Of a stretch of 64,000 nt of DNA, positions 23,551 through 27,008 are shown piece after piece; the first letter of the stretch is position 1, and each line of letters opens with the position of its first letter. The stretch covers positions 248,001 through 312,000 of the forward strand of contig NZ_JAMBOO010000002.1 in the NCBI RefSeq assembly GCF_023715895.1. Reading direction: 5' to 3'. The DNA is from Domibacillus indicus. GTDB lineage: Bacteria; Bacillota; Bacilli; Bacillales; Domibacillaceae. Under the pieces are notes generated by a model. It saw only the letters and a list, made by a program, of their open reading frames with translations, was not told the DNA's origin and did no database searches. The translations under genes were made by a program, and so were the position numbers.

Positions 23551-23587
23551 TCTTTTGCTTTAGCGAATGATTAGAAAAGAGGTGGAA

Positions 23588-25063
23588 ATGGCGTTGTCAC
23601 AACACGAAACACCATTATTTGACGGGCTTCTTCGCCACGCCGAACGGAACCCAGTTCAATTTCATATTCCAGGTCATAAAAAAGGAAGCGGAATGGACCC
23701 CGTCTTCAAAGAATTTATCGGAGAAAATGCGCTTTCCATTGATTTAATTAATATTGCACCCCTTGATGACCTCCATCAGCCGCACGGTATCATTAAAGAA
23801 GCCCAGCAGCTGGCTGCCGAGGCATTTGGTGCTGACCATACGTTTTTCTCTGTTCAAGGAACAAGTGGAGCTATTATGACGATGATTATGGCCGTTTGCG
23901 GACCTGGTGAAAAAATCATTGTACCGCGTAATGTCCATAAATCCATTATGACCGCGATTGTATTTTCTGGTGCAGTTCCGATCTTTATTCACCCTGAAAT
24001 TGATAAAGATTTAGGAATTTCGCATGGTATTACAACCGAGTCTGTTACTCGGGCATTAACAGAGCATCCGGATGCAAAAGGCCTGCTCGTGATTAACCCG
24101 ACGTACTTCGGCATTGCGGGCGATTTAAAACAAATCGTTGATATTGCCCATTCATTCAACGTTCCCGTTCTTGTCGACGAAGCACACGGTGTTCATATCC
24201 ATTTTCATGAAGACCTTCCGATTTCGGCTATGCAGGCAGGAGCCGATATGGCGGCCACGAGTGTGCATAAGCTGGGCGGTTCTATGACCCAGAGCTCTAT
24301 CTTAAATGTACGCGAAGGACTTGTATCCGTAAATCGTGTACAGACGATTTTGAGTATGCTGACAACGACATCTACGTCTTATATCCTGCTTGCTTCCCTT
24401 GACACCGCACGGAGACACCTTGCGATCAACGGGCATCAAATTATTGAGCAGACCCTGAAACACGCGCAGGAAACACGAAAAAAAATAAACGAAATTGATC
24501 ACCTGTATTGTGTAGGTGAAGAAATTCTAGGCTCAAAAGCCACGTATGATTATGACCCGACCAAACTGATTGTTTCTGTTAAGAACCTTGGTATAAGCGG
24601 CCATGATGCAGAAAAATGGCTCCGGGACCGTTATAACATCGAGGTAGAGCTCAGTGATTTATACAACATTCTCTGCATTATTACACCAGGGGATACGAAA
24701 GAAGATTGTGAACTGCTTGTGAAAGCCTTAACTGAAATGGCAGCTTCCTTTAAAGGCACTGTTCAGTCTAGATATGCGCATGTAATGCTGCCGGATATCC
24801 CGCTGTTAGCACTGTCTCCTCGCGAAGCTTTTTATAGCGAGACAGAAACAGTCCCGCTTGATGAATCAGCAGGCCGGATCATGGCAGAATTTATGATGGT
24901 TTACCCACCGGGTATCCCGATTTTTATTCCGGGTGAAATCATTACAGAAGAAAACCTGCGTTATGTAAAAGAAAACGTAGCAGCCGGACTTCCTGTTCAA
25001 GGCCCGGAAGATGAAGAATTAAAAACATTACGTGTGATCCGCGAACGCAAGCCGATTTATTAA
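23588..25063 (+). CDS. speA: Arginine decarboxylase (SpeA)
   Basis: A 491-residue PLP enzyme of the Orn/Lys/Arg decarboxylase class I fold that converts arginine to agmatine, the first step of polyamine synthesis. Features are VQFHIPGHKKGSGMDP near residue 20, DEAHGVHIHFH near 205, the Schiff-base lysine in TSVHKLGGSMTQSS near 230, and a C-terminal MVYPPGIPIFIPGE. ATG at 23588 is 5 bases after AGAGG; the TTG at 23594 corresponds to the B. subtilis start (MSQHETPL) and is equally possible. It faces the SR1P genes across a shared terminator. Confidence 0.95.
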   Translation: MALSQHETPLFDGLLRHAERNPVQFHIPGHKKGSGMDPVFKEFIGENALSIDLINIAPLDDLHQPHGIIKEAQQLAAEAFGADHTFFSVQGTSGAIMTMIMAVCGPGEKIIVPRNVHKSIMTAIVFSGAVPIFIHPEIDKDLGISHGITTESVTRALTEHPDAKGLLVINPTYFGIAGDLKQIVDIAHSFNVPVLVDEAHGVHIHFHEDLPISAMQAGADMAATSVHKLGGSMTQSSILNVREGLVSVNRVQTILSMLTTTSTSYILLASLDTARRHLAINGHQIIEQTLKHAQETRKKINEIDHLYCVGEEILGSKATYDYDPTKLIVSVKNLGISGHDAEKWLRDRYNIEVELSDLYNILCIITPGDTKEDCELLVKALTEMAASFKGTVQSRYAHVMLPDIPLLALSPREAFYSETETVPLDESAGRIMAEFMMVYPPGIPIFIPGEIITEENLRYVKENVAAGLPVQGPEDEELKTLRVIRERKPIY

Positions 25064-25065
25064 AA

Positions 25066-25096
25066 AAAGAGCCGCTCCAGTTGGAGCGGCTCTTTA
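25066..25096. terminator. Bidirectional terminator, speA / SR1-like RNA
   Basis: AAAGAGCCGCTCC pairs with GGAGCGGCTCTTT with an AGTT loop. It can end speA on the + strand and the SR1P transcript on the - strand. Confidence 0.85.
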
Positions 25097-25105
25097 TCTA
25101 TCCGT

Positions 25106-25222
25106 TCAGTCATCACTCTCTGTTTCATGATCACAGCCACAATGAGAGTATAAAACTGTCACCTTTTCTTCTTCAAAGTGCTCAATTGTTGCTTTGCATG
25201 ACTTGCAGATGATTGTTCCCAT
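25106..25222 (-). CDS. GapA-binding peptide SR1P, copy A
   Basis: A 38-residue peptide with the family start MGTIICKSC, a central acidic FEEEKVTVLY and a second cysteine pair CGC, so a likely small zinc-binding fold. In B. subtilis SR1P binds glyceraldehyde-3-phosphate dehydrogenase GapA and boosts its link to RNase J1. The genome location also matches. The ribosome site is AGGGGGTT, slightly weaker than in copy B. It differs from copy B by one residue (Lys10 here, Gln10 there). Confidence 0.9.
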   Translation of the reverse strand: MGTIICKSCKATIEHFEEEKVTVLYSHCGCDHETESDD

Positions 25223-25309
25223 GTTTTATAACCCCCTGTTTTTGTTTTTGAAAGCGATTTATGTTTATTAAATTTATATCCACTTGGAGCGGCTCTTTTA
25301 GCTATCCGT

Positions 25310-25426
25310 TCAGTCGTCACTTTCAGTTTCATGATCACAGCCACAATGAGAGTATAAAACTGTCACCTTTTCTTCTTCGAAATGCTCAATTGTTGCTTGG
25401 CAAGACTTGCAGATGATTGTTCCCAT
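25310..25426 (-). CDS. GapA-binding peptide SR1P, copy B (promoter-proximal)
   Basis: A 38-residue SR1P, same length and cysteine pattern as copy A (Cys6, Cys9, Cys28, Cys30), with AGGAGGTT 9 bases before the ATG. The two ORFs differ at seven bases, six of them silent, one giving Gln10 instead of Lys10. This pattern implies that both peptides are under selection for sequence. RNase J1 (rnjA), a known SR1P-GapA partner system, is encoded further along this window. Confidence 0.9.
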   Translation of the reverse strand: MGTIICKSCQATIEHFEEEKVTVLYSHCGCDHETESDD

Positions 25427-25479
25427 GTTTTATAACCTCCTGTTTTTGTTTTTGAAAGCGTTTTATGTTTCTTGAGTTA

Positions 25480-25527
25480 ATAATAATATAACACATTTAA
25501 AATTTCAAGCTCTAATTGTATAACATA
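25480..25527 (-). promoter_or_regulatory. SR1 promoter with two CcpN-type operator boxes
   Basis: On the - strand a -35 TTGAAA (25508-25503), 17-base spacer and -10 TATTAT (25485-25480) are seen. Two 11-mers, TATGTTATACA (25527-25517) and TGTGTTATATT (25495-25485), both match the CcpN operator consensus TRTGHYATAYW as I recall it. They lie 32 bases apart, one upstream of the -35 and one in the spacer touching the -10. CcpN represses SR1, gapB and pckA during glycolysis in B. subtilis. Two weaker cre-like sequences (TGAAAGCG then TTTTAT or ATTTAT) occur in the leaders of both copies. Confidence 0.8.
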
Positions 25528-25598: not shown

Positions 25599-27008
25599 TT
25601 ATTTTACGATGTGAATTGGTGTTCCAAGTGCTACTTCTGCTGCTTCCATTGTCATTTCAGCAAGCGTAGGGTGAGCATGGATTGTCATCGCTACATCTTC
25701 AAGTGTCATACCTGCTTCAATCGCAAGACCAAGCTCTGCTACCATGTCAGAAGCGCCTGAACCAGCGATTTGCGCGCCGATGATCAGTCCGTCTTCTTTG
25801 CGTGATACCACTTTTACGAAGCCGTCTGTGCTGTTAAGCGCAAGCGCACGGCCATTCGCTGCAAATGGGAATTTCGCAGATACGATTTCGATGTTTTCTT
25901 CTTTTGCTTGTGCTTCACTGTAACCAACTGTTGCAAGTTCTGGCTCTGTAAAGCAAACCGCTGGAATCGCAAGGTAATCCACTTCAGATTTTTCTCCTGC
26001 AATCGCCTCAGCAGCAATCTTACCTTCATAAGATGCTTTATGGGCCAAAGGAGGTCCCGAAACGATATCGCCGATTGCGTAAATGTTTTCTACACTTGTA
26101 CGGCACTGTTTGTCAACTTCTACCAAGCCGCGCTCTGCTACTTTCACGCCAATGCCTTCAAGACCCATTTCATCCGTGTTTGGACGACGGCCTACTGTAA
26201 CAAGTACGTAATCAGCTTCAATTGTTTCTTCTTTTCCGCCTGCTTCGTATGTTACTTTTACGCCGTTTTCTGTTTCTACGGCTGATTTAGCCATCGCACT
26301 CGTTACGATTTCGATGCCTTTTTTCTTCATATTGCGTTTAACGATAGCAGACATTTGTTTTTCAAAGCCGCCAAGAATTTCAGGAGCGCCTTCAAGGATT
26401 GTTACTTCTGTTCCAAAATCCGCATATGCTGTTGAAAGCTCAGAGCCGATGTAGCCGCCGCCGACAACAACCATTTTTTTAGGGATTTCTTTTAGTGATA
26501 ATGCGCCTGTTGAATCAATAACGCGGTTTGAAAATTTAAAGTTCGGAATTTCAATTGGGCGTGATCCAGTAGCAATGATCGCATTTTTAAATGTATACGT
26601 TTGTGCAGAATCTTCACCCATAACACGAAGCGTGTTCGCATCGTTGAAGTATGCTTCACCGCGAACGATTTCCACTTTGTTTCCTTTTAGAAGGCCTTCA
26701 ACGCCGCCTGTAAGCTTGTTCACGACGCCAGCTTTCCACTCTTGTACTTTGTCGAAGTTTACAGAAACAGCTTCAGCAATGATACCGATATCGTCAGAGT
26801 GTTTCGCCTGCTCGAAACGGTGAGCTGCTGTTAAAAGAGCTTTAGAAGGAATACAGCCTACGTTTAAGCAGACGCCTCCAAGATTTTCTTTTTCAACGAT
26901 CGTTACTTTTTGTCCAAGCTGTGCTGCGCGGATTGCCGCTACATAACCGCCAGGGCCTGAACCAATTACTATAGTGTCTGTTTCAATTGGGAAATCTCCT
27001 ACTACCAT
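25599..27008 (-). CDS. pdhD: Dihydrolipoamide dehydrogenase E3 (PdhD)
   Basis: A 469-residue flavoprotein that reoxidises dihydrolipoyl groups of the pyruvate (and probably 2-oxoglutarate) dehydrogenase complexes, passing electrons to NAD. Motifs are the [13 protein letters not shown] (near residue 17), the redox disulfide [16 protein letters not shown] (near 43), the NAD site [11 protein letters not shown] (near 183) and the C-terminal HAHPTLAE with the catalytic histidine. GGAGG lies 8 bases before the ATG and overlaps the end of pdhC. Confidence 0.97.

Follow-up and report, generated by a model that had tools for sequence, protein, structure and literature searches.

Tandem SR1P genes behind a single candidate promoter in the pdhD–speA interval of Domibacillus

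A pair of 186-nt direct repeats lies on the minus strand between pdhD and speA in Domibacillus indicus; they are 92% identical, follow each other with a period of 204 bp and each hold an intact 38-codon SR1P ORF. SR1 is a model dual-function RNA that is described as one gene per genome. The arrangement is probably explained (we put the probability at about 0.72) by a promoterless tandem duplication of SR1, which would lead to a bicistronic RNA and an extra dose of SR1P, with further copies gained by unequal crossover. It was originally predicted, from the letters of the 64,000-nucleotide stretch of DNA analysed here (the window), that direct repeats of about 204 bp carry two 38-codon SR1P genes. 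This is borne out by the repeat identity, by Pfam and Rfam matches and by recurrence of the array in 4/13 genomes of the genus, namely the window genome itself (G000), another genome of its species (G006), D. robiginosus (G009, L030) and Domibacillus sp. PGB-M46 (G010, L029). The tandem sr1 array modifies a known regulator in a real, if modest, way. As a duplication without its own promoter has become fixed in a clade, the two jobs of SR1 are here pulled apart: each transcript should yield twice the peptide, whereas the RNA itself is altered. Nature thus provides a test of which of the two, peptide dose or RNA pairing, selection acts on.

Organization of the tandem locus

Copy B lies upstream, near pdhD (dihydrolipoyl dehydrogenase; 25599..27008, minus strand), and copy A downstream, near speA (lysine/arginine decarboxylase family; 23567..25063, plus strand). 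Both flanking genes were located in the ORF list, and speA served as the query of the SpeA survey; their names are presumptive, pdhD being that of the original prediction and speA that of the same source and of the known SR1 context. All features described below are on the minus strand. Repeat unit B (25297..25482) spans approximately the inferred transcription start to just 5′ of the terminator and contains the ORF with Q10 (25310..25426), while unit A (25093..25278) contains the ORF with K10 (25106..25222). ORFs A and B match the Pfam SR1P family (PF13790) with E-values of 1.4e-17 and 1.5e-17 and scores of 64 and 63.9 bits, above the curated cut-off of 26, and the Rfam model RF02376 scores 65.9 bits for A and 46.1 for B, the latter barely over the gathering score of 45 bits; a scan of NCBIfam at E 0.001 gave no match for either copy. 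As for membership of SR1, the units are placed between pdhD and speA, unit B but not unit A has a CcpN-type promoter of its own, and unit A but not unit B has its own intrinsic terminator.

Along the direction of transcription the locus consists of the pdhD terminator, the TATGTTATACA box, TTGAAA-17-TATTAT with TGTGTTATATT across the spacer, the leader with a cre-like element, AGGAGG, SR1P-B, a lone left terminator arm, a short A+T-rich junction, leader A with AGGGGG, SR1P-A and the 13-pair terminator. The sigma-A type promoter (25480..25508; 10/12 match) is found 5′ of copy B only, and single-copy Domibacillus as well as the three further tandem genomes have it at the same position. CcpN-like boxes were called with TRTGHYATAYW and cre-like elements with TGWAARCGYTWNCW, patterns that we assume to represent the respective consensus. 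Box 1 (25517..25527), immediately 5′ of the −35 element, and box 2 (25485..25495), in the spacer/−10 region, match the former exactly. Two exact boxes and the promoter precede the B copies in 4/4 genomes and the A or middle copies in 0/5 cases. When the leaders of 76 SR1P ORFs from 80 SpeA loci (L029–L108) were surveyed, at least one exact CcpN-like box was found before 62/76 ORFs, as compared with 0.7% of mononucleotide-shuffled leaders; these boxes are a family trait of SR1P leaders. A cre-like site with at most two mismatches was present within 150 bp of the SR1P start, also for 62/76 ORFs, vs. 6.5% of shuffles. The cre-like element of leader B in the window (25453..25466) has one mismatch to TGWAARCGYTWNCW and matches best on the opposite strand, and that of leader A (25249..25262) has two; the site of the promoterless leader is decayed or lost in copy A of G006 and G010, whereas it is retained in all four B copies. 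A separate promoter for copy A was considered and rejected, since the A leaders offer only a 9/12 match, which ends 3 nt 5′ of the ATG and would start transcription inside the ORF.

The intrinsic terminator 3′ of copy A (25066..25095) is strong, with a 13-pair stem and a fold of −26.6 kcal/mol, and speA is transcribed towards it from the opposite direction. The terminator scan of the window locus found no terminator-like site between ORFs B and A. The duplicated unit ends within the terminator and copy B therefore keeps the left arm only (25279..25299, by repeat and fold analysis), without the right one. Competition of this arm for the right arm of the terminator was discarded, as the computed pairing is negligible (0.006).

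The Shine-Dalgarno sequence of copy B is AGGAGG (25436..25441), as in 4/4 B copies, and that of copy A is AGGGGG (25232..25237), which includes one G-U wobble and is of the GGGGG type seen in 4/4 A copies and in the middle copy of G006 (G006_M). Their computed energies are −11.5 kcal/mol for B vs. −10.6 for A. In G000 the Shine-Dalgarno alone is predicted to be unpaired at 0.19 in both copies, while for the stretch from there to the ATG the values are 0.15 in A vs. 0.42 in B, so that A is more paired, a point against the preferred explanation. It was also observed that in 7/8 tandem copies computed (the A and B copies of the four genomes, with no shuffle control) the Shine-Dalgarno is predicted to pair with codons 25–27 of its own ORF; the exception is copy B of G000.

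We propose that a head-to-tail duplication of SR1 took place in the ancestry of a Domibacillus subclade. The copied unit would have extended from near the transcription start into the terminator, leaving the promoter and the CcpN operators uncopied and the upstream unit without a terminator. Given a single promoter and a single terminator, one CcpN/CcpA-type promoter should then drive a bicistronic RNA, in agreement with the bicistronic arrangement originally put forward. With the start placed, by assumption, at 25478, the distance to the terminator end is 415 nt, and the readthrough transcript of about this length would contain two Shine-Dalgarno/SR1P cassettes and end at the single terminator. 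If both ORFs are translated, it could give up to two SR1P peptides per transcript with gluconeogenic control unchanged, and the likeliest benefit would be dose, presumably with GapA as the target.

The Domibacillus locus resembles SR1/SR1P of B. subtilis (RF02376, PF13790) in its pdhD–speA placement, SR1P ORF, positions of the CcpN sites, single terminator and unit of about 205 nt. SR1P of B. subtilis binds GapA and promotes RNase J1, biochemistry that is, in the sources cited here, known for this species only. The B. subtilis gene has a sigma-A promoter with one CcpN site 5′ of the −35 and one in the spacer, and a cre about 260 bp upstream (PMC8464778). In contrast, Domibacillus has two (or three) units with the promoter before the first only and the terminator after the last only, and its cre-like element lies in the leader. 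The closest precedent is PrrF1/PrrF2 with PrrH of P. aeruginosa, tandem sRNA duplicates that are read as the longer PrrH from the first promoter (PMC4211561, PMC10597452). Like the PrrF siblings, the SR1 units are two related RNA genes adjoining by duplication. However, in PrrF each unit has retained a promoter and a terminator, and PrrH needs terminator readthrough, whereas the SR1 array has no internal promoter or terminator and encodes a peptide, and its sequence argues against a separate transcript per unit. OmrA/OmrB, AbcR1/2 and the csRNAs are separate transcription units and are not known to have a conserved ORF. These siblings, too, are described as tandem sRNA paralogues (PMC4211561).

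Distribution and history of the copies

The flanks of the array are 98.4% identical to the window in G006, 97.8% in G010 and 88.9% in G009, and SpeA of the window is 100% identical to that of Domibacillus sp. PGB-M46. G006, a two-contig assembly, has three SR1P copies. In a survey of SpeA among named genomes, 148 of which encoded a relative, 80 loci were kept; 74 of them have an SR1P pattern match, and some of the other six loci are incomplete. The original prediction considered a two-copy SR1 unusual and suggested a comparison of one vs. two copies in related genomes; the comparison agrees with it, as tandem SR1P was found at 2/74 SpeA loci with SR1P, both from Domibacillus and both also among the 4/13 genomes of the genus. 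In a sample of the order comprising 397 genomes, 325 have SR1P and 23 have more than one; 19 of these 23 lie outside Domibacillus, and a close pair is present in two of them, Priestia abyssalis (G388) and G065, both times at a second locus. SR1P doublets thus arise repeatedly, but among the sampled genomes they occur at pdhD–speA only in this Domibacillus clade. The P. abyssalis doublet (G388:C1:2274411 and 2274646; L159:5394-5751) is similar to the Domibacillus array in that two SR1P ORFs lie 235 bp apart; unlike the array, it is located away from pdhD–speA and an exact CcpN-like box accompanies each of the copies, from which it follows that the promoter was duplicated too. The G065 doublet (L160:5438-5747) is not at pdhD–speA either. 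Neither tandem SR1P nor an SR1P gene next to phosphofructokinase is mentioned in the part of the literature that the search covered, to which the 2012 survey of SR1 homologues does not belong; as evidence of absence this is weak.

All four tandem genomes have in common the junction GATATAAATTTAATAAA 3′ of copy B, the GGGGG Shine-Dalgarno with K10 in copy A and AGGAGG with Q10 in copy B, features which point to one old duplication. In the unit tree, however, both D. robiginosus copies fall outside A and B of the other three genomes (supports 58–80), and A copies do not group with A nor B with B. This conflict would require gene conversion or a separate duplication, and gene conversion would account for both the tree and the shared features. 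In G006 the middle copy combines a leader of the A type with an ORF of the B type. Such a hybrid is what unequal crossover would produce, and the array thus appears to be a live tandem repeat that gains copies in this way, three in G006.

Selection on the peptides and competing explanations

The two ORFs of the window differ at seven positions, six silent and one K10Q, a count that our recount reproduces. With dS of 0.36 and dN of 0.011, dN/dS between them is 0.03, and neutral simulation gave at most one amino-acid change in seven with P of 0.0004–0.0018 (transition bias 1 to 4), which supports the originally noted bias toward silent change. The simulation excludes stop codons and the tested sequence pairs are not independent. 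The further claim that both copies are selected holds for B and less firmly for A, as an A/B comparison cannot show both. Between the B copies of the window and D. robiginosus there are 11 nucleotide and three amino-acid differences (P 0.0003–0.0022), while the A copies differ by eight and three (P 0.015–0.047); purifying selection is hence well supported for B and moderately for A, where it is marginal when taken alone. G000, G006 and G010 by themselves have too few changes to show constraint: two amino-acid changes and one silent in A, one of each in B. None of the nine tandem ORFs is disrupted, and each retains C6, C9, E19, K20 and V21, the residues invariant in 77 SR1P sequences.

A less probable explanation is that copy A or the whole array is a near-neutral tandem repeat whose copies turn over through unequal crossover and gene conversion; most of the silent bias would then date from a time when each sequence was itself the functional copy, or was converted from it. 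It fits the variation of copy number within one species (two vs. three), the middle copy of G006 as a crossover product, the changes K7Q and A11V against one silent change in copy A of the three close genomes, and the absence of the cre-like site from the A leader in 2/4. Against it, both ORFs are intact in four genomes at A/B dS of 0.36–0.44, copy A is short of amino-acid change relative to its D. robiginosus counterpart, as given above, the Shine-Dalgarno sequences are retained and K10/Q10 persisted despite conversion. It is improbable that the duplication acts through the RNA and not the peptide; on this view the left terminator arm, which in unit B has no partner arm to pair with, would serve as an exposed pairing site. 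Pairing of SR1 with ahrC in B. subtilis does begin in the left terminator arm (PMC8464778), and the lone arm is kept in G000, G006 and G010 and predicted to be 56% unpaired in G000; it is, however, degraded in D. robiginosus, and whole-length SR1–ahrC duplexes, a test insensitive to short seeds, gave no signal in five Domibacillus genomes, with 44, 22, 56, 58 and 44 of 100 shuffles as good in G000, G006, G010, G009 and G005, respectively.

The original prediction had offered higher SR1P dose or two functional variants as the outcome. The former is the likelier, and a functional split in which K10 and Q10 peptides serve different partners is unlikely, even a little more so than an action through RNA. 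K10 is present in 4/4 A copies and Q10 in 4/4 B copies and G006_M, but position 10 is among the most variable of the family, being third among the first 26 (2.06 bits, 77 sequences) and occupied by N, E, L, D, Q, K, S and R among others, and by Q, R, E, L or K in single-copy Domibacillus. G000 is a draft of 180 contigs, which could suggest an assembly artefact as the source of the second copy. This was ruled out by recurrence of the array in four assemblies, including D. robiginosus (89% flank identity) and the two-contig G006, and the copies differ by 8%. A near-identical third copy could have been collapsed in the draft. The promoterless duplication with a gain in dose is the explanation that we prefer.

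Accessory SR1P genes and glycolytic clusters

In the 13 Domibacillus genomes 39 SR1P matches were counted, 21 of them outside the sr1 locus by our own assignment, and genomes of the tandem clade have 5–9 SR1P genes each. Of the eight accessory PfkA-type genes in the genus, 8/8 have an accessory SR1P no more than 4 kb away. Clusters in which accessory SR1P genes accompany a second phosphofructokinase are found at G000:C77 (L149), G006:C1 (L152, L153), G009:C35 (L155), G010:C41 and C60 (L157, L158), and G001:C18, G003:C4 and G008:C22 (L167–L169). Two more distant PFK-family matches (G000:C107, G009:C30) have no such neighbour. Genes for RpiB, a GntR regulator, a putative MFS transporter and a putative Tpx-like protein are also present in the clusters, the latter two names being our own reading of the sequence. 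A further, diverged SR1P doublet is found in the phosphofructokinase cluster of G006 (L152:4660-5031) and G010 (L158:5120-5492). Outside Domibacillus, the same PFK/RpiB cluster surrounds the second SR1P in G291, G349, G311 and G369, and among 12 secondary loci examined six have PFK and/or RpiB and six have neither. In G006:C1 (L154:15669-18714) a third GAPDH gene is followed after about 100 bp by an SR1P homologue and then by pyruvate kinase, and this row adjoins a RuBisCO-like protein and a four-carbon-acid-kinase-type gene; the other 12 genomes of the genus have only two GAPDH genes.

A tentative reading is that SR1P, more than a partner of housekeeping GapA, makes up a mobile family of peptides that accompany glycolytic enzymes. 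It would have multiplied in Domibacillus and some other Bacillales and been carried into PFK/RpiB clusters of sugar catabolism, and in one case to a place behind a third GAPDH; each glycolytic isozyme set might then be tied to RNA decay by an SR1P of its own, with the tandem sr1 as the dose arm. This side finding may be more important than the tandem array itself, and accessory SR1P genes beside phosphofructokinase and GAPDH are a concrete lead on other partners of SR1P-type peptides. Five of the 21 accessory genes (G000:C66, G006:C1:742694, G010:C56 and two in G009:C60) have no close glycolytic neighbour. A weak SR1 covariance match of 31 bits, under the gathering score and with no SR1P ORF by pattern, was also seen at G000:C104:2350-2490 (L151).
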